Shown in pieces: positions 6,252 through 64,000 of a stretch of DNA of 64,000 nt. Source of the DNA: Spiroplasma chinense. GTDB lineage: Bacteria > Bacillota_I > Bacilli_A > Mycoplasmatales > Mycoplasmataceae. The notes under the pieces were generated by a model, which worked only from the letters and a program-made list of their open reading frames with translations, was not told the DNA's origin and did no database searches. Numbering within the stretch: position 1 is the stretch's first letter; each line of letters starts with the position of its first letter. The DNA lies in contig NZ_CP043026.1 in assembly GCF_008086545.1 (NCBI RefSeq), positions 620,001-684,000 on the forward strand, given 5' to 3'. The position numbers and the translations under genes were made by a program.

Positions 6252-8357
6252 ATGAAAAAACTTTTAAGTATTTTAGGAGCTATGAGTATTACAGCATCAG
6301 CATCAGCTAGCGTTGTTGCTTGTGGACCTGCAAAAGTTACAAATTTATATACAGACAATGTTTCTCAAGAAACTATTGCAAAATTAATGTCACAATATGC
6401 AAAAGGTCTATACTTAAACCAAAACGGTGAACAAACAACTAAAAGTCATATTAGTTCAAGTGAAGTGTTTAATAATATGGTTAAAGACCAATATTTAGAT
6501 GACTTAGGATTAGAAGGTTTTGATGAAAGTTTAGGAATTTCAAAATATACAAGATTTAACGAAGTTGCTTCAAACTTTATAAATACTGAAAATCTAACAA
6601 GTAAAGTTGAAGTTAGTGAAAGAGTTTGACAAGGTGGAGTGGTTTCTATGGAAAACCAAGTACCTGAATTACTTCAATCAGTTGTTGATATGGCACCATC
6701 ATTAATTGGAGCTCTAGCAAACCCTGCAGCATTAGCGGGAATGCTTGAAAATCTAGATATTAGTGCATTTATTCAACCAGAAGTTTTAAAGGTTATGGCA
6801 AATGTTTTAACTGAAGAAAACTTCCAACTAATTGAAAATGCATTTAGTAACGATGTTTATGAAAACATGAGTGTTCAACAATCATTGGACTCAAGTGTTA
6901 TAGGACTTGCAAATGCAATGGCAAACTTAACAGGAACTGGAACTGATAAATTTATTCAATCTTCAGGGTTCGACAAAGATACTCTAGATACAGATTTAGA
7001 AACAAATTATAATCTTGCAATAAATTCATTAATTAAATCTATTGGAGGATTTATGGGTGGATCTGTTTCGATCAAATTTGACTTGGTTGAAAGTGTTCCG
7101 GCTGTTGCTGAAATATTAAGATTTGTAAGAACTTTACTAGTTTATTTAAACTCATTTACTTATGAAGATTACACAAATGCAGAAGGTGTTAAAGCTGTAG
7201 ATGTAAAAACCAAAAGAGATACAAGTATGAATGAAATAGATAACACAACAGATATAAAAAAATTACTAGATGTATTAAAATATATGGTTAATGACCAAGA
7301 TGGCAATGGTGTTGTTGTATTAAAAAATGTACTTGGAATATTGGCTGCAACTTCTTCATCTGTTGCTTGTGTTGTGTCAGAAACAGTTCCTAATACAGGT
7401 GTATATCCGAGTGAACATGCTGCATTTGGGGATTTAATAACAAAAATTTTATTTGCAATGACAGGAATGAGTGAAATAGTTGAAGCAAACCCAATTCCAT
7501 CTATACCAAGTATGGTTTTAAAAGTTAACGTTAAATCATTCTTAAGAGACCTAATTAATTCAGGTGCAAATATGAAAGGTAAATCATCTGCAAATTGAAG
7601 TGTATCTTCTCAAACAAACCAAGTTTTAACAGGAATGTTTGCAAATACTTCATTGGTTACTGAACCTTTAAAATCAATTTTAGAAGCTATAAAAGAAAAA
7701 GGAGATTCAACAACTTTTAAAAATGATTGAGTAGCATACTTATGAGACAATGATAATGAAGCTTTAAACATGTCTATTAAAGGTATGTTAGATCAACCGT
7801 TATCTGGATTAATGTCTTTATTTGGAGAAACTGAAGTTGCTAAAAAATTAGGATTTGATGTTAAAACTTCAACCGCATTTGATTTCTTATTAAACAAAAG
7901 TCTTAAAACAATAGTTAACGATTTAAGTGCAGCTGTAGATACTGCAAAAAATACTGAATTTAATTTTGATGATATTACAAAAGTAATTCAAGCTTGTAGA
8001 AAAGATGATGCTTTAGTTAATGCATTAAGAGACCCAGAAAACTTAATGAGTCATTTAGGGCTAGTTGATGGAAAAGTTATTGAAGGTTCAGTGTTAGATG
8101 TTATTTCAAAAACTGTTGGAACTTATGATTGATTAGTTAAAGTTCTTCAAGTAATCCAAGGTTACTTAAATGAAGGAAATAATTTAGCAAAATTAGTTAA
8201 AGATCAATTAAAAGAAATTAAAGTCGAAACAACTATCAAAGGAACAAATACTTTTGTTTATACAGTTTCTCAAGGTGATGTAACAAACACATTCGAAATT
8301 GCTATGAAACAAGTAAAAAACAAATTAGTTATTGATAAAATTACTTTAGTTGACTAA
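6252..8357 (+). CDS. Large lipoprotein, cassette copy 2
   Basis: A 701-residue lipoprotein with signal MKKLLSILGAMSITASASAS and the lipobox Cys at 24. Several TGA codons are read as Trp. It is paralogous to 1913-4009 throughout, with a conserved hydrophobic middle region around ALANPAALAGMLENLDISAF and a C-terminal region containing VNDLSAAVDTAKNTEFNFDD. No enzymatic motif was seen. Its position as the third gene behind an esterase lipoprotein and a membrane protein, kept in both copies, suggests the three products form one surface complex (inference). It ends just before a terminator. Confidence 0.85.
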
Positions 8358-24265: not shown

Positions 24266-24313
24266 TTGTAATTTTACTTTTTTAGAGTTATTATATTGTT
24301 GCAAATGCAACAA
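24266..24313 (+). promoter_or_regulatory. marR-yhgE promoter with 18-bp palindromic operator
   Basis: The -35 TTGTAA (24266-24271), a 17-base spacer and the -10 TATTAT (24289-24294) are directly followed by the palindrome TTGTTGCAAATGCAACAA (24296-24313). The palindrome would cover the transcription start. MarR proteins typically bind 16-20 bp palindromes at their own promoter, so autorepression is likely. Copies of this palindrome recur at 59.5 and 60.5 kb. Confidence 0.75.
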
Positions 24314-24336: not shown

Positions 24337-24768
24337 ATGCACGATATTTCATTTAGTATTCAATTATTTTTAACAGCAACTTTTGCAGTAGAATATGTTG
24401 AAAAGAAGCTTAAAAAAATTGGATTAGATAGAAATGAATTTTTATATATCATTGTAGCAAAATATTTTCCTAGTGTTTCTCAAAGCACTATTGCTAAAAA
24501 ACTTAATGTTAATAGATCCACAGTTTCTCGTATTATAAGTAAATTGATAAAAAAAGATTATTGTTATAGAGAAAATAGTGAAAATAACAGAGATTTCAAT
24601 GTATATCTTACAAATAAAGGACAAGAAACTTGTACAGATATTGAAAAAGTAATTAGTGAATTTGAAGACAAGTATTTAAATACTTTAGGAAATACAAAAG
24701 ACTTTACTAACACTTTTTGAGATTTCTTTACAAAAATTAGAGAAGCGCAATTTGGCATAAAAAAATAG
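24337..24768 (+). CDS. MarR-family transcriptional regulator
   Basis: A 143-residue winged-helix protein. The recognition region is QSTIAKKLNVNRSTVSRIIS (about residues 48-67), followed by the wing KKDYCYRENSENNRDFNVYL and a C-terminal dimerisation helix. Length is typical of MarR. It has a strong Shine-Dalgarno (AGAAGGAGG) and lies 17 bases upstream of a YhgE/Pip-type membrane protein, a common MarR-transporter pairing. It presumably represses its own operon through the palindrome just upstream, and by the repeated palindromes also lipoprotein genes near 59-60 kb (inference). The ligand is unknown. Confidence 0.85.
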
Positions 24769-24785: not shown

Positions 24786-27020
24786 ATGAAAGATAACGAC
24801 GATGAAAAAAATGTTTTAGATTCTAAAAAAGATAAAACTGTTAAAAAAGAACCTAAAGCAAAAAAAGAAAAATCAAACAAAACATCTTGATTAAATGGTT
24901 ATGCAACTTCTGTTAGAGAAGAATTTAGTTCACGTATTGGTTCAAGTTGAAAACGTGTAATTAAATTCTTAGGAATATGTATTGTACCAATTCTTTATGG
25001 TGTAACTTGTATTTTAGCTTTCTGAAATCCAATACCAAACATCGGGAAAGCTAGTGTAACTTTCCTAGATCAAGAACAAGAAATGCTTGTAGCAACAAGT
25101 TTTAAAATGGATGATCAACTTGACGGTCTATTAGTTTATAAAAACGATTCTGAACAAGCTGAAAAACCAGAATATAAATTCATAACTACTTTATACGAAA
25201 AAAACCAAGACGGGAACTACAGTGAAGCTTCATATCGTTACAACGATGAAAAAGCTCGTGTTGAAGCTGCAACTAAAGTAGGAACTTGAATGAAACAAGT
25301 AGAAGGGGCTAAAGATTTATTTAAAACTTCAGCTGAATTAAAAAATCCAGTAGAAGGAGTTGAAGTAAATTACTTAAGCGACATAAGATACGTTTATGAC
25401 ATGACTCCAATGCATTTACTACAAGCATTTGGTGTAATTACATCAAATGATAGTAGCAAAGATATTGAAGATCAAAAATTCCAAACTAAAGGAATTGGAG
25501 AAGAAAATATCGCTTTCTCAAACATTGATTACAAAAGATGAGACAATGGTGGAAGTGATATTTGACAAACTACTAAATCATACGTACAAATAAAAGTTGA
25601 AAAAGAAACATTTAGTAACTTAATTAACTTTGCAAATTACTTTATGATTTCTTTAGAAAATCAATTTGAAGAATCATTTGGAGCAATGTTACCATTAATG
25701 TTTAGTTTGTTAGGAGTTAGTTCAATTGATGAAATTATTGCAATGCCTCAAGAAGAATTACAAACTAAATTAGAAAAATTGTTAAGCAGTCCATTGGTTG
25801 CAGCTCAATTAGCACCAGCAAAAGAAAAAGCAGAAGAAATTATTTTTTCACTAACTGGGGATGTTAAAACTCAATTAGAAAAATTAAAAGAAACACCATT
25901 AAATATTTGAACAACATATTCAAAAAACTTCTTATTTGGATATTACTTAAATACTGTAAATAAATTTAAAGATGCTATTCCAATGCAAATTTTAGAAGGT
26001 GCACCTGGAATTATTCAAGCTTATTTAAATCAAACAGGTAAAGGTAACATCAACTTGATACTTGAAGGGATAGGGGCATATGATTCTTCTATTACAACAA
26101 CAAGTGATTTAGTGAAAGTTGATGTTCATGGACAAGAAAATGGAATATATGGGATTGGATTGGGACAATTCTTCCTATTAATTGGATTATTTGTAGGAAC
26201 TTTAATGCACACATTTGTTTATGATAGAGCAAAACGTGGTGGACCAAAAGTTTCTAAAACACAATGATATTGTGCAAAATGAACTTTAATGATTGTAACT
26301 GGATTTATCCAAACAACATTATTAGTATTGGCAGCTGCAGCTGCAGGAATGCATCAATTGGGATTTGCATCTCTTGCTGAATTGTGGGCAGTGTTGTTGT
26401 TGGTAGATCTTGTATTTGTTACAACAATTCAAGCAATTTGATTTAGTGTAAAAGATGAAACAATTGGAAAATTCTTGGTGATTATTTATATGATCTTAAA
26501 CCTTTCATCAGGTTGAGGAACATTCCCATCATTTATGCAATTTGGATTCTTCCACGCTGTATCATACATTACAGAATACTCATACTCATTACACTTAATG
26601 GGATTAGCAATTTATGGAGGAAATGGCGTAACTGATGCGTTATTTGCTCTACAAAATGTATTTATATTACTTGCATTTGCAGTAGTGTTCTTTACATTTG
26701 GAATTCTAATGTCAAGATTTAGAAATTACGAAATGCACTTTGGTACATATAATAAAAAACACATTGCAGAAGGTTTACAAGCAATTGGTGCAAAAGAATA
26801 TGACCAATTTGTAACAGTTAATGCAAAAGGACGTAAAACTTATAACATGAAAGCTCTTGATCACGAAAAAGTTTATGAAGACTTAATTTCTTGAATGAGA
26901 GTAAATCACCCTTATGAAGGACAATTCAAACGTTATAAAGAAAAACAACGCCCACAAGTGTTAAAACCAAACTATTCAGATGATGACATCATGACAAGAA
27001 ATGATGATACATTAGTTTAG
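24786..27020 (+). CDS. YhgE/Pip-type membrane protein (ABC-2-like exporter)
   Basis: A 744-residue protein. A lysine-rich cytosolic start (1-45) leads to a first membrane segment with VPILYGVTCILAFWNPIPN, closely matching the YhgE/Pip N-terminal signature (LYA...AFWDPYGN). A large extracytoplasmic region (about 80-450) contains a helical part. Five or six C-terminal membrane segments begin at GQFFLLIGLFVGTLMHTF and include the ABC-2-like core. The cytosolic tail is basic. Family members (phage infection protein Pip, YhgE, EsaA) have export-related roles or act as phage receptors. It forms an operon with the MarR regulator. Substrate unknown. Confidence 0.75.
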
Positions 27021-57157: not shown

Positions 57158-57189
57158 TTGATTTTTTTTTTTTTTTATGAGAACATTAT
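57158..57189 (+). promoter_or_regulatory. Promoter with a T15 tract in the spacer
   Basis: A possible -35 TTGATT (57158-57163) overlaps a run of 15 T (57162-57176). A possible -10 CATTAT is at 57184-57189. The spacer is 20 bases, 3 over the optimum, so a shorter T tract would restore good spacing. AGGAGG follows at about 57198. Confidence 0.55.
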
Positions 57190-57211
57190 TTTGCTTAGGA
57201 GGCAAATAAAA

Positions 57212-57814
57212 ATGAAAAAATTATTAAGTTTATTAGCAGCTACTGGATTAGTTGCAACAACTAGTGCTACTGTTGTAGCATGTGGTGACAAACCAGCAGC
57301 TGAAAATGATGCTAAAGAATTAACAATCGCAAAAGATGCTACTGAAGTAAAAGTTTCAGTAACAGTTAAAGAATTTGTTGAAACTTCACAATTCTCATTA
57401 GTTTCAGATAAAGCTGAAGCTTCAATATTAGAAGTTAAAGGATTTGAAGTTAAAGCTGATGCTTTAACAGGAGAAATCGTAATTTCTGTAAAAGCTGACG
57501 CAAAAAGAGAAGCTGATGTAACTGAAGCTATCACTGTTAAATATGGTGAAGAAGAAGTTGTTAAAGTAAGTGTTACTATCGCTGCTTTAGAAAAAGAAGA
57601 TGGTAATGGTGGAGACAACGGAAACACTGATGGTGGAGACAACGGAAACACTGATGGTGGAGACAACGGAAACACTGATGGTGGAGACAACGGAAACACT
57701 GATGGTGGAGACAACGGAAACACTGATGGTGGAGACAACGGAAACACTGATGGTGGAGACAACGGAAACACTGATGGTGAAAATAACGGAAACACTGATG
57801 GTGGAAATGAATAA
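57212..57814 (+). CDS. Surface lipoprotein with acidic octapeptide repeats
   Basis: A 200-residue lipoprotein, MKKLLSLLAATGLVATTSAT with Cys24. A beta-rich domain of about 100 residues (VKVSVTVKEF ... EEEVVKVSVTIA) is followed by eight octapeptides GGDNGNTD to the end. The start is the ATG behind AGGAGG, not the earlier in-frame ATG at 57158. The design (lipid anchor, small domain, repeat tail) and the homopolymer at the promoter recall phase- and size-variable lipoproteins of Mycoplasma. Function unknown. Confidence 0.85.
   Translation: MKKLLSLLAATGLVATTSATVVACGDKPAAENDAKELTIAKDATEVKVSVTVKEFVETSQFSLVSDKAEASILEVKGFEVKADALTGEIVISVKADAKREADVTEAITVKYGEEEVVKVSVTIAALEKEDGNGGDNGNTDGGDNGNTDGGDNGNTDGGDNGNTDGGDNGNTDGGDNGNTDGGDNGNTDGENNGNTDGGNE
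57608..57799 (+). repeat. 24-bp tandem repeat, seven perfect copies plus one variant
   Basis: Units of 24 bp encode GGDNGNTD. Seven appear identical at the DNA level; the eighth reads GENNGNTD. In-frame expansion or loss is expected. Confidence 0.95.
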
Positions 57815-58630: not shown

Positions 58631-59377
58631 TTAGTTTAATATAATTGTTATAATAGCTTTTCCGTTAATTCATGAGTCTTCAAGGCCTCAAAAATTAATA
58701 GAAATTTTTTGATTTGGTTTTAATTCTTTTGTAGCAATAACCTCATCATAATCGCATTTATAATGAACGTTTTCAACTATTTCTTTTCAACGATCATGTT
58801 CGGGTATTCCAAATGATTCACCTACAATGCTGTTAAATACACCGATCATAACACCTTTGATATAGCTTCATTCAGCATTTGGATCGTTTGTGTTTTGATT
58901 AACTTGAAAGTGAAAATTAGTATTAGAATCAAATTTATTTTGAATAGTGGTTAGATTATTATTTTTAGACTCTTCTGAAATTTCATCTTCTCCACCAGTA
59001 TTTGGTGTATCTTCTCCACCAGTATTTGGTGTATCTTCTATATAAAATCAAGAAACTTCAACAAAACCTTCAACTTTAATGAAGAAATCTTCATTAGGTA
59101 TTAGTTTTACCTTACCTTCATTAACTCTACTATCAACTTCACCATCTATTTTTATTTGTTGAGAACTTACTATTTTTAGATTTTTAATAGCTTGCATTAG
59201 TCCTTCATTACTTTTTTTGTAAATTTGTATATTTAATTTATCACCACTAAATAAGTTATTTAAATCTGTTCCAGCTGGTGCAAAAACTTCCACATCTCCT
59301 GGATCACATGAAATAACGTTTGTTACTGTAGGTACTACAAATGAAGCACCTCCAATAATAGCCAATAATTTTTTCAT
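58631..59377 (-). CDS. Family lipoprotein A
   Basis: A 248-residue lipoprotein, MKKLLAIIGGASFVVPTVTN with lipobox VISC (Cys24). An N-domain (about 30-110) is followed by a linker with a doubled TPNTGGED. A C-domain of about 110 residues ends in WGLEDSWINGKAIITI. The same two-domain plan, with the motif W-GL(E/K)-SWI-G-AII near the end, recurs in the next three genes and in part in the fourth. Its promoter contains the MarR-type palindrome. Shine-Dalgarno GGAGGTG. Function unknown. Confidence 0.85.
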
Positions 59378-59502
59378 ACAAACACCTCCATTTTTTAAGG
59401 TAATTTAAAATTTGAACTATTTGTTAATTAATACGCCTCTTTTTAATCATATTGCCGTATAGTTAAAAAGAAACAATAACATTTTTAAATGTTACTAAAT
59501 AT

Positions 59503-59539
59503 ATTCTATATCTAAAATTTAACTGTTGCAAGTGCAACA
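59503..59539 (-). promoter_or_regulatory. Promoter of lipoprotein A with embedded palindrome
   Basis: On the minus strand, -35 TTGCAA (59526-59531) lies inside the palindrome TGTTGCAAGTGCAACA read on the plus strand (59524-59539). After 17 bases comes -10 TAGAAT (59503-59508). A bound repressor would cover the -35. Confidence 0.7.
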
Positions 59540-59565
59540 ATTAAAAAATAAAGTAAAAAACGTTG

Positions 59566-59592
59566 AAAAAATCAGCTTAAAAAGCTGATTTA
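59566..59592 (-). terminator. Intrinsic terminator of lipoprotein B
   Basis: AAATCAGC / GCTGATTT followed, on the minus strand, by T6. Confidence 0.8.
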
Positions 59593-59604
59593 AAATAATT
59601 TGAA

Positions 59605-60318
59605 CTAATTTAATGTAATGGTAATGATAGCTTCACCGTTTAATCAAGAACCATCCAAACTTCAAAAGTTTATATAAATTTTTTGACCTGGTATCAATTC
59701 TTTTGTTGCTACTACTTCGTCATAATTACATTCATAGTGTTCATACTCTTTAATTTTTTCGTAACGTTCGCTTTCTGGTATTCCAAATGATTCTCCAACT
59801 ATTTCGTTGAATACTCCAATTACAGTACCTCTAATATATTTTCAACCTGCCACAGGGTCTGTAGAAACAGAGTTAACATTGAAATTAAAACCTGCATTTG
59901 AATCAAATTTGTTTTGAATTGAATGCAAATTGTTGTCTGAATTTTCACCACCAGGATTGGGTTCTGGTAATTGTCCATTGTGATAAATTCAAGTTATTTC
60001 TACTTGACCTTCTACTTTAATAAAAAAATCTTCATTAGGTAATAATTTAACTTTGCCAGTATCTAAATCTGATTTTATTTCACCCTCAATGATATATTGT
60101 TGGTGATTTATAATATTCAATTTCTTGATAGCATCAATTAGACCTTGAATATTTTTTTGGTTTATCTGAACAGTTGCTTTTTCTTCATTAAATAAAGATT
60201 CTAATTTTGACCCAGCTTCTGCATATATTTCAGTTTCACCTGGATCACATGAAACAACATTCGATGCACAAGATGCACCAACTGTTGTACTTGCCATAAT
60301 TGCCAACAACTTTTTCAT
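59605..60318 (-). CDS. Family lipoprotein B
   Basis: A 237-residue paralog of lipoprotein A: signal MKKLLAIMASTTVGASCASN, Cys24 in VVSC. The N-domain contains LPNEDFFIKVEGQVEIT (A has IPNEDFFIKVEGFVEVS), and the C-terminal domain contains FGIPESERYEKI and the INFWSLDGSWLNGEAIITIT ending. Short Pro/Gly linker. A terminator on the 3' side and its own operator-bearing promoter show it is expressed separately from A. Confidence 0.85.
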
Positions 60319-60487
60319 AAAAACACCTCCTCATTTTTTTAAATAAGTATAAAATAAGTGTTTGTTGATAAAAGTTAATATTTCTGTTTTTTAGAAACAG
60401 TTTTGATAGTCTTAAGTAATTAACTATTTTATGCCTGCTAGCTAATTCTCAAAACGATAACATCCATACTTGAATATTACTAAATCT

Positions 60488-60600
60488 ATTGTATAAAAAA
60501 TTTTCAATTGTTGCAAATGAAACAATATTTTTTTCTACTCTAAAACTCCATAAATAGGGGGTTTTAGAAAAAGTTTAAACTTTTGTTGCAATTGCAACAA
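60488..60600 (-). promoter_or_regulatory. Promoter of lipoprotein B with two palindromes
   Basis: On the minus strand, -35 TTGCAA (60511-60516) sits in TTGTTGCAAATGAAACAA (60508-60525, one mismatch from a palindrome). A 17-base spacer leads to -10 TACAAT (60488-60493). A second, perfect palindrome, TTGTTGCAATTGCAACAA, lies at 60583-60600, 75 bp away centre to centre, about seven helical turns. The rest of the 340-base gap shows nothing else but the terminator of lipoprotein C. Confidence 0.7.
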
Positions 60601-60617
60601 ATTTGACAAATAGGGTA

Positions 60618-60653
60618 TAAAAAAACCATATAATTGATCAAAATTATATGGTT
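60618..60653 (-). terminator. Intrinsic terminator of lipoprotein C
   Basis: AACCATATAATT / AATTATATGGTT followed, on the minus strand, by T7. Confidence 0.85.
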
Positions 60654-60658
60654 AATGA

Positions 60659-61354
60659 TTAATTTAAAATAATTGTAACTTGTGTTTTACCACTAAATCA
60701 AGAATCTTTTAGAGTTCAAATATTGATTATAGCTTTATTGCCAGGTTTAAATTCTATATTTTTGACAACTTCATCGAAATCGAAATCATATTCAAAACCT
60801 TCTCTTATTAAGTTTTGTCTATCACCAGGTGCAATTCCAAATGCTTCCCCAACAAGTGTATTAAATACCCCCTTAACAGTACCTTTAGCCATTTCTCAAG
60901 ATGTATCTGGTGATGTTTGATAGTTAAATGTTCAATCCTTAAGTTCGCTGATTGTACTTAAACTATTATCTTTATCATCTGGTAAATTAGGTATTGAACC
61001 ATCATCATAGATTCAATTAATTGTAACTTCTTTTATAACTTGGTATCCAGGGAAAGTTCTTGGAATAATGTGAGCTGTTCCAAAGTTTTGACTAAAATCA
61101 ATTTCGTTGTCATTTTTATCTCCAGCCACTTCAAATTGTAATGAACTGATAAATTTAAGAGAAGTAATTTCTTTTACAATTCCTTCAACTGATTTGTTTT
61201 TTATAGTAATTGTTTCATAATCGGCAAATAAAACCATTAGATCAGATTGGTCTGGTGCTAAAACACCTAAATCATCTGAATCACAAGAAACTACGTTAAT
61301 AATGGTAGGGGTTGTAATTGAAATTCCCCCAATAAATGCAAGTAATTTTTTCAT
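60659..61354 (-). CDS. Family lipoprotein C
   Basis: A 231-residue family member: MKKLLAFIGGISITTPTIIN, Cys24 in VVSC. The N-domain is more divergent than in A and B, and the C-domain ends WTLKDSWFSGKTQVTI. The ATG at 61354 is 7 bases after GGAGG; an earlier in-frame ATG at 61387 was rejected. The upstream gap holds a palindrome CCTTA-tgca-TAAGG-like sequence near 61390, different from the MarR palindrome. Confidence 0.83.
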
Positions 61355-61565
61355 TAAAATACCTCCAGTATCACTTGTTCGCAACATTCCTTATGCATTA
61401 AGGCAAAATCACTGTAATAATACATAAAAACATATGTGTTTGAAATATTATTTATATTTTAATATTTTTGATTCACAAAAGCAAATTAACACACATTTTT
61501 TTTGCCTAAATACCTTTTTAAATAGGGGTAATTTAAAGGAAAAAAAATAATAAATTTTTTTTCAT

Positions 61566-61594
61566 AAAAAAAACTCTAATGAGTAGAGTTTTTT
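61566..61594 (-). terminator. Intrinsic terminator of lipoprotein D
   Basis: AAACTCTA / TAGAGTTT, followed by T run on the minus strand; touches the stop codon. Confidence 0.85.
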
Positions 61595-62354
61595 ATATAA
61601 TTTCAACTTCAATTATAGCTTGACCTTTAATTCAAGAACCTTCAAGTCCTCAGTGTCTAACTAATAAAGTTTGTTCTTCTAATTTTTTGTCTTTTATAAC
61701 TTCTTTTCAATCATTTGTATATGTTAAATCTTTTCTAACACTATCATAATCGTTTTCATCTATTCCAAAAGCCTTTTTAGTTACAGTGCTGAATGTTGCT
61801 TCAACTTGAGCACCAATTAAGTATCAAGTGTATTCTTCTATTGAAGTAATTCCAGCTGGTGCATCTTTAAAGCCTTCTTCAGCACTTTTCATTTGACTTT
61901 TTAAATCAATTTTAAATCCAGCACTTGTATTTAATTCTTTTTCAATGTTATTTAATGAATTTTCTTCATCTGGTTTTGGAGTTTCTGATCCATTTTCTTC
62001 ATTTGGATTTGATGAATCTTTATAAATTCACTCTATTTCAGTTTCACCAATTACTGGCAGAAAGTAATCTTTGTTACCGGTGATTTTTACAACTCCTTTA
62101 TCAGAAGTAAAATCAATATTATCTTCTAAAAGAAATTGGTCTGCACTCATTACCTTTAAATCTACAATAGATTTGATAAGTGTTTCTTTATTTTTTTGAT
62201 TAATAATAACTTGTTTATAATTTGTTAGTAATTCGCTAATGTCAGAATTTGCTGGTGCAAAAACTGTAGCTTCCCCAGGATCACAAGATACAACACTAAT
62301 AGCCGTTGGCGTTGTAACTGAAATCCCTCCAATAAATGCAAGTAATTTTTTCAT
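61593..62354 (-). CDS. Family lipoprotein D
   Basis: A 253-residue family member: MKKLLAFIGGISVTTPTAIS, Cys24 in VVSC, then DPGEATVFAPANSD (A has DPGDVEVFAPAGTD). An acidic Pro linker precedes the C-domain, which ends HWGLEGSWIKGQAIIEV. Shine-Dalgarno GGGGGTG lies 6 bases before the ATG. It is 59 bases downstream of lipoprotein E and probably cotranscribed with it, with a hairpin switch in between. Confidence 0.85.
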
Positions 62355-62360
62355 AACATG

Positions 62361-62412
62361 CACCCCCAATTAATATTTTTTTTGTTATTTTAGTCCCCCT
62401 TAAGGGGGGGTG
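62361..62412 (-). promoter_or_regulatory. Competing GC hairpins over the ribosome binding site of lipoprotein D
   Basis: On the minus strand CACCCCC (62406-62412) can pair with the nearby GGGGG (62395-62399), forming the palindrome CCCCCTTAAGGGGG, or with the Shine-Dalgarno GGGGGTG (62361-62367). The two pairings exclude each other. There is no T run, so it is not an intrinsic terminator. Confidence 0.55.
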
Positions 62413-62413
62413 A

Positions 62414-64000
62414 TTAAACCCATTTAACTGTAATTTCTGCGGAATTTTTAATTCAAGAATCTTTTGTTCCTGAAACTACAATTGTTAAATCTTCTAAATC
62501 TGGTGGAACAGAACCTGTAAAGTCGCTATATTCGAACTTAACATCTTTTGTTATTTCTTCATAATTTGTTGTGTAATCAACATTACGTCTAATAAAGTCT
62601 CCTAAACTTGCTTCTTGTCCAACATCAATATTTAAAATTAATCCTAAAGTACCAACAAATGTACTTGCAACGTTTCCTTCAATTATATTTCAAGCAATTT
62701 CATCAATAGTTTTGTCTGGATTGTTTTTTTGATCTGCTTTTGCAGAAGAAAGTGTTGATTTATATTGAACACTAATTGGTCTGACATTTAATTGATCTTG
62801 AAGGTTTTCTAAATCAATTTCTTCTTCTTTAAAATCTGAAGAAACTGTTCATGTAACATCAACTTGACCAATAAATTTACTTCCAGCAACAGCTGAAATA
62901 TGTGCTCCTGTTTTAGAAATATTTGAAATTGTTACATCTTTTAAAGATAATGCACCAATTGTTTCAACATTTTCTTTTTTAACTAATTCTCAAACATAAA
63001 CTGGAATAAATTGTAACTCTTTAATATTTTCTCCCAAGTTTCTATTAACAATAAGTTCTGGAATTGATGTTTTTCCATTGTCTACTGCAAATGATATTTT
63101 GATTGAATTTTTAACTTTTGTAGAGTTAGCTATAATTACAGCTGAATTTACAGTTTTATCAATAACTTTTACGTCAGCTGTTTTAATTCCAGCAGTTCCT
63201 AATTCTCAATTTTTATTAAAGAATTCATTTAAAATAGAAATGTCGCTATCACTTGTTAACGCTCCAAGTGCAATTCCTTTTAAACTAGATAGGTCAAATG
63301 CATCAGGGTCTGGAGTTTCAGTTTCTTTTAAACTATATTTAACTGAAACATTTCCAGTATATTTAGTTGAGTTTGAAATTGATTTAATAGTTGCACCAGT
63401 ATCACTAATGTTTGCAACTTCAATTTGACTAGTATCTAAATCACTATTTAAACTTTTTACTTTTGAAATAATTGTGCTTGAAGAGTTATTTTCAAGTTCA
63501 CCTAAAGTAGTTGATTTAATGATTGTTGATAATTCAACTAATTTATCTCCAGGTTCTGGTTCTGGTTGAGTTTCTTTTATTGTAAAAGTAACGTTTACTG
63601 AACCTTTGTATTTTGCAGAATTTAATTTTGGAGTAACTTTTGCTCCAGTATTTGTTATGTTTGTAATTTGAATCTCTGATTTATCTAAACTACTATTTAA
63701 AGCAGCTATTTTTGAAATAATTGTAGATTCGTCATTTTTATCTAATTCACCAAGTGAATTTGAGGTAATAACTGTTGCAAGATCTATTCTTGTGTCTGGA
63801 ACCCCAGCTTTTGAGTATTGAATATTTTGCTTACCATAGTAATAATTAGAATCTTTTATTGAGTTTACTACAGCACCGTTATTTCCAATTTTAGAAATTG
63901 TAAAATCACTTTCTTTTAGATTTGAGTTTTTAGCTAAAAGTACTTCTTTAATATTTTGTTCGTTAATTTCTTTAATTTCTCCCAAATCACTTTGAGGTAT
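62414..64000 (-). CDS. Large repeat lipoprotein-like protein E (5' end beyond window)
   Basis: At least 528 codons without a stop; the start lies past 64000. At least three repeats of about 90 residues are visible. Each starts with an S-LGEL-type motif, continues with STIISK(I/V)-LNS-LD-S-I-I-NI--TGA, and ends with Y-G-V-V-. This resembles the repeated domains of Spiroplasma/Mesoplasma lipoproteins. The C-terminal ~130 residues (TKDSWIKNSAEITVKW) share the closing domain of lipoproteins A-D. Trp near the end uses TGG. Surface location is inferred; the signal peptide is not visible. Confidence 0.8.

Follow-up and report, generated by a model that had tools for sequence, protein, structure and literature searches.

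A candidate MarR operator shared by a marR-pip operon and two distant lipoprotein promoters in Spiroplasma chinense

Introduction

Does a short palindrome that occurs both at a MarR-family regulator gene and at lipoprotein genes 35 kb away mark the operators of one small regulon? The question bears on the surface of a group of bacteria in which regulators are scarce. Mollicutes retain few transcription factors and, to our knowledge, little is understood of how their surface lipoproteins are controlled, repeat-based phase variation apart. Judged by title and abstract, no paper found in the open-licence literature describes a regulon of this kind, be it a Spiroplasma MarR-lipoprotein link or a YhgE/Pip-MarR link.

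The DNA analysed here (the window) is a stretch of 64 kb, bases 620001-684000 of a single-contig genome of 1,370,182 bp (1.37 Mb; 27.9% G+C). A sequence-only reading of the window had noted a palindrome at 59524-59539, 60508-60525 and 60583-60600, had placed it over the -35 boxes of two lipoprotein promoters, and had proposed that the regulator of a distant marR-pip operon acts on these lipoprotein genes through this operator.

Results

A MarR-family gene and a YhgE/Pip-like gene share a predicted promoter

The genes of the window are open only if TGA is read as tryptophan. Together with the match of the lipoproteins to Mollicute models, this code marks the genome as that of a Mollicute from a Spiroplasma-like family. 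Under the same code, marR encodes a protein with a PF01047 winged helix-turn-helix domain (44.8 bits against a cut-off of 24.6), and numerous MarR proteins of solved structure match its profile (best 3s2w, E 1.7e-22). It is the sole member of its clade in the genome. The pip product matches the Pip C-terminal model TIGR03062 with E 4.5e-23 at 81.9 bits, below the curated cut-off of 102.2, and the N-terminal model TIGR03061 with E 0.0011, likewise below its curated cut-off. All three palindromes of the sequence-only reading are present, and the 16-bp sequence TGTTGCANNTGCAACA occurs in a fourth copy at marR, ending 24 bp before the gene (Table 1).

Table 1. Positions in the window of the genes, predicted promoters, palindromes and terminators discussed in the text
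Feature	Position	Strand	Description
Predicted marR-pip promoter	24266-24294	+	-35 TTGTAA, 17 bp, -10 TATTAT (24289-24294); consensus match only
marR palindrome, TGTTGCAAATGCAACA	24297-24312		Directly 3' of the -10, over the expected marR-pip transcript start
marR	24337-24768	+	143 aa, MarR-family winged-helix regulator, TGA = Trp
pip	24786-27020	+	744 aa, YhgE/Pip-like membrane protein, co-directional with marR
lpA	58631-59377	-	248-aa lipoprotein; LP_plasma NF038029 30.7 against a cut-off of 24
Predicted lpA promoter, TGTTGCACTTGCAACA	59503-59531	-	-35 TTGCAA (59531-59526) inside the palindrome, 17 bp, -10 TAGAAT (59508-59503)
lpA palindrome, TGTTGCAAGTGCAACA on +	59524-59539		Covers the predicted lpA -35
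lpB terminator	59570-59591		Hairpin
lpB	59605-60318	-	237-aa lipoprotein, 56% identical to lpA; LP_plasma 18.9, below cut-off
Predicted lpB promoter, TGTTTCATTTGCAACA	60488-60516	-	-35 TTGCAA (60516-60511) inside the palindrome, 17 bp, -10 TACAAT (60493-60488)
Proximal lpB palindrome, TGTTGCAAATGAAACA on +	60509-60524		Covers the predicted lpB -35; one half-site changed
Distal lpB palindrome, TGTTGCAATTGCAACA	60584-60599		Perfect; 75 bp upstream of the proximal lpB copy
lpC terminator	60626-60651		Hairpin

The palindrome covers the predicted -35 of two tandem lipoprotein genes

The products of lpA and lpB carry a lipoprotein signal peptide with a lipobox cysteine, with the same MKKLLA...SC signal in both. 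The predicted -35 of each gene is the second TTGCAA of its palindrome, read on the minus strand. The hexamers of these promoters have only 9 of 12 consensus matches, and shuffled DNA is equally rich in such matches; the case for the two predicted promoters is made by their position, their common 17-bp spacing and the alignment of both regions, not by the hexamer score. The claim that the same operator lies over the -35 of two lipoprotein promoters thus stands for lpA and for the proximal lpB copy, with the boxes and spacing as first read, but the distal lpB copy lies over no -35 and has no convincing promoter under it. Its distance of 75 bp from the proximal copy was borne out. Moreover, lpA and lpB are tandem paralogues whose upstream regions align from the palindrome through the ribosome-binding site, so that the two promoters amount to about one independent event, in effect one promoter duplicated. 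The distal copy counts as another independent event besides this duplicated promoter.

The region from 58631 to 64000 belongs to a run of five lipoprotein genes in tandem on the minus strand (genome 678631-684340), where the syntenic place in genome G005 has two. A further lipoprotein, at 57158-57814, has a C-terminal part made up of a run of NGNTDGGD repeats.

Intergenic copies of the palindrome are confined to these sites in the genome

The genome-wide motif scan that had been suggested as a check was run over the complete genome, and chance expectation was taken from a first-order model over about 105-106 kb of intergenic DNA. Exact intergenic matches numbered 3 against 0.00014 expected, and matches with at most one mismatch numbered 4 (three perfect and one single-mismatch) against 0.008 expected. 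Beyond the marR copy, the lpA copy and the two lpB copies, no intergenic match with at most one mismatch was found in the whole genome. At two mismatches the only intergenic matches were two parS sites and a site at genome position 755183, which reads like part of a small gene missing from the annotation. Every remaining match at two mismatches or fewer falls inside a gene. Only two of the 104 lipoprotein-like genes in the genome, lpA and lpB, have the palindrome within 300 bp upstream, which extends to the whole genome the earlier remark that the motif is absent from other lipoprotein genes. The proposed link between marR-pip and lpA/lpB by a common operator is therefore strongly supported by the scan, but it is not seen in relatives, as detailed below.

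The parS sites (TGTTTCACGTGAAACA) lie outside the window at genome positions 8270 and 8314 (8270-8329), 44 bp apart, with a partial further copy just downstream of the pair. Their outer frame is that of the MarR palindrome. Another inverted repeat outside the window, AGCACTT-N9-AAGTGCT at about 573638-573660 of the genome, precedes a TATAAT-like -10 and is CIRCE-like.

marR and pip recur as a pair in other genera, and MarR paralogues carry similar palindromes

A MarR gene is directly followed by a YhgE/Pip-like gene in genomes G204, G152, G144, G106, G124 and G166, which represent four other genera of the same family; the MarR of G204 is 41% identical to the one studied here. Because the pair recurs across genera, MarR and Pip belong together. 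Within G005, a MarR gene keeps the neighbourhood seen in G144 and G106, and pip is located elsewhere. Four genomes (G006, G007, G012 and G015) have pip between recA and rny, without marR.

Upstream of the marR-pip operon of G124, TATCTCATTTGAGACA forms a clear palindrome in the same frame just 3' of the -10. The corresponding palindrome of G166 is weak, and none was found at the operons of G106, G144 and G152; in G204 the upstream region is cut off by the contig end. On the lipoprotein side, a clear lpB homologue outside the genome studied here occurs, within the genus, only in G005 (39% identity, same neighbouring genes), and no such palindrome is found at the lipoprotein genes there. The regulon as such is known from one genome.

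The genus contains a second MarR clade with 16-bp palindromes in the same frame (TGTTTCA-WW-TGAAACA and variants, for example TGTTTCATATGAAACA), which lie about 30 bp ahead of the start codon of the MarR gene itself, in excess of the number expected in shuffles. They differ from the motif of the window by one base per half-site. At L046-L055, L134-L135, L139 and L263-L270 the second-clade MarR gene is usually divergent from a membrane- or transporter-like gene, with the conserved palindrome TGTTTCAWWTGAAACA or a variant of it.

These comparisons bear on the identity of the protein that reads the palindrome. A different regulator, with marR-pip, lpA and lpB as its targets, is an unlikely reader, although it would have candidates: other helix-turn-helix proteins of the genome match the MarR profile weakly, one DeoR-type protein lies just over the PF01047 cut-off, and the half-site TGTTTCA, present in one lpB site as well as in parS, implies that a relative of the half-site is read by another protein of the cell. 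Against this, one of the four sites lies directly before the gene of the sole MarR of this clade, where MarR operators are usually found, and the MarR paralogues of the genus carry palindromes in the same frame. A TetR-type protein was also considered as the reader, and none scored over the cut-off in the genome. The position of the marR copy, the pairing of marR with pip in other genera and the palindromes of the paralogues all point to MarR as the predicted reader, as first proposed.

A similar stem-loop in the rny leader has a separate explanation

In G006, G007, G012 and G015, a palindrome close to that of the window, found between the divergent genes pip and rny, was considered as a conserved pip operator and rejected, as it is a stem-loop of the rny leader that is present also without pip. 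G006 and G012 have this palindrome and no MarR at all. When rny leaders were compared in all 20 genomes of the genus, nearly all had a stem-loop just 3' of the -10, among them genomes where pip is absent. Its arms vary and stay complementary (GTTGC/GCAAC, GTCGC/GCGAC, GTCAA/TTGAC), while the loops differ. Judging from this pattern, the rny message most likely begins with an RNA hairpin, and the element as such is uninformative on pip regulation; possibly it is a leader element for mRNA stability or feedback of rny (RNase Y). It was located at L171-L190 (for example at about 1459-1474 in L171) and at about 485791-485806 of the genome studied here, and in several genomes the leader then has a second stem such as CTACTT..AAGTAG.

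Since rny shows a 5' hairpin with similar arms at the same place, the transcript start right after the -10, the marR copy alone is ambiguous. This opens the reading that the palindromes act not as DNA bound by a protein but in RNA, as 5'-terminal hairpins or terminators. A pattern scan in which the lpA copy is rated a weak terminator also speaks for it. We nevertheless consider this reading very improbable. The lipoprotein copies are unambiguous because they lie upstream of the predicted starts, and would thus be untranscribed from those promoters, and because lpB and lpC already have separate hairpin terminators of their own (Table 1). In addition, arm sequences are identical among the sites, whereas an RNA hairpin would need complementarity only. 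Least probable of all is that the lpA and lpB copies were merely inherited by gene duplication and are functionless. The aligned upstream regions accord with duplication but leave unexplained the match to marR and the additional perfect copy, the one at 60584, and exact matches are expected only 0.00014 times in all intergenic DNA. Furthermore, 14 of 16 positions are the same in the lpA and lpB palindromes, against about 10 of 17 in their 17-bp spacers, which have drifted.

Discussion

The reading that we favour, and regard as likely from the sequence comparisons, is that the MarR encoded at 24337-24768 has the palindrome as its operator and is an autorepressed regulator with a tiny trans-regulon. 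One repressor would then probably control both marR-pip and lpA/lpB. A MarR dimer would bind all four palindromes, and repression would come about by a block of the transcription start at its own operon and by occlusion of the -35 at lpA and lpB. In the light of established MarR biology, the placement of the palindrome at the marR-pip start and across the lpA/lpB -35 would in both cases fit steric repression by such a dimer. The two lpB sites, separated by about 7.1 helical turns, would present similar faces of the DNA, and binding to them may be cooperative. If a ligand or stress signal were to release MarR, Pip and both surface lipoproteins would rise together. Pip as an exporter, the term of the sequence-only reading, is an assumption, and the coordinated envelope response that this reading foresaw is putative.

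The lpA/lpB arm was probably added to the regulon recently: the operator may have captured a single promoter, which was then duplicated along with its gene. The complete picture, in which MarR coordinates a YhgE/Pip protein with two distant surface lipoproteins, using one operator in two ways (at its own start site and at a -35 in trans) as an inducible surface switch born of recent operator capture and duplication, seems to us evenly poised. If true, this would make a compact example that lends itself to testing: a MarR regulon of four sites and three promoters in which surface lipoproteins are tied to a membrane protein operon. It would also hint at the role of YhgE/Pip proteins.

The proposed regulon resembles what is known of Mollicute transcription networks, where regulators are few per genome, regulons are small, and Spiroplasma promoters have TTGACA-like -35 and -10 boxes (PMC5138195); the main text of that promoter map makes no mention of MarR or lipoproteins. 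The second MarR clade of the genus is like the MarR of the window in the frame of its palindrome, TGTT-CA-NN-TG-AACA, and in its distance of about 30 bp from the MarR start codon. It differs in the half-site (TGTTTCA versus TGTTGCA here), in the neighbouring gene and in the protein itself, which has 26-31% identity to this MarR.

Autorepressed operons of the MarR family include MarR-marRAB of E. coli, MepR-mepA of S. aureus and MexR of P. aeruginosa. Like these, the present case has a MarR gene with or beside a membrane protein gene, a palindrome of about 16-20 bp at the promoter and few extra targets in trans. Unlike them, it has a YhgE/Pip-like protein in the place of a proven drug pump, its operator is a predicted one, and its putative targets in trans encode surface lipoproteins in a bacterium that has no cell wall. 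The regulator thus appears to be of an ordinary kind, with a target set that is unusual and, so far, lineage-specific.
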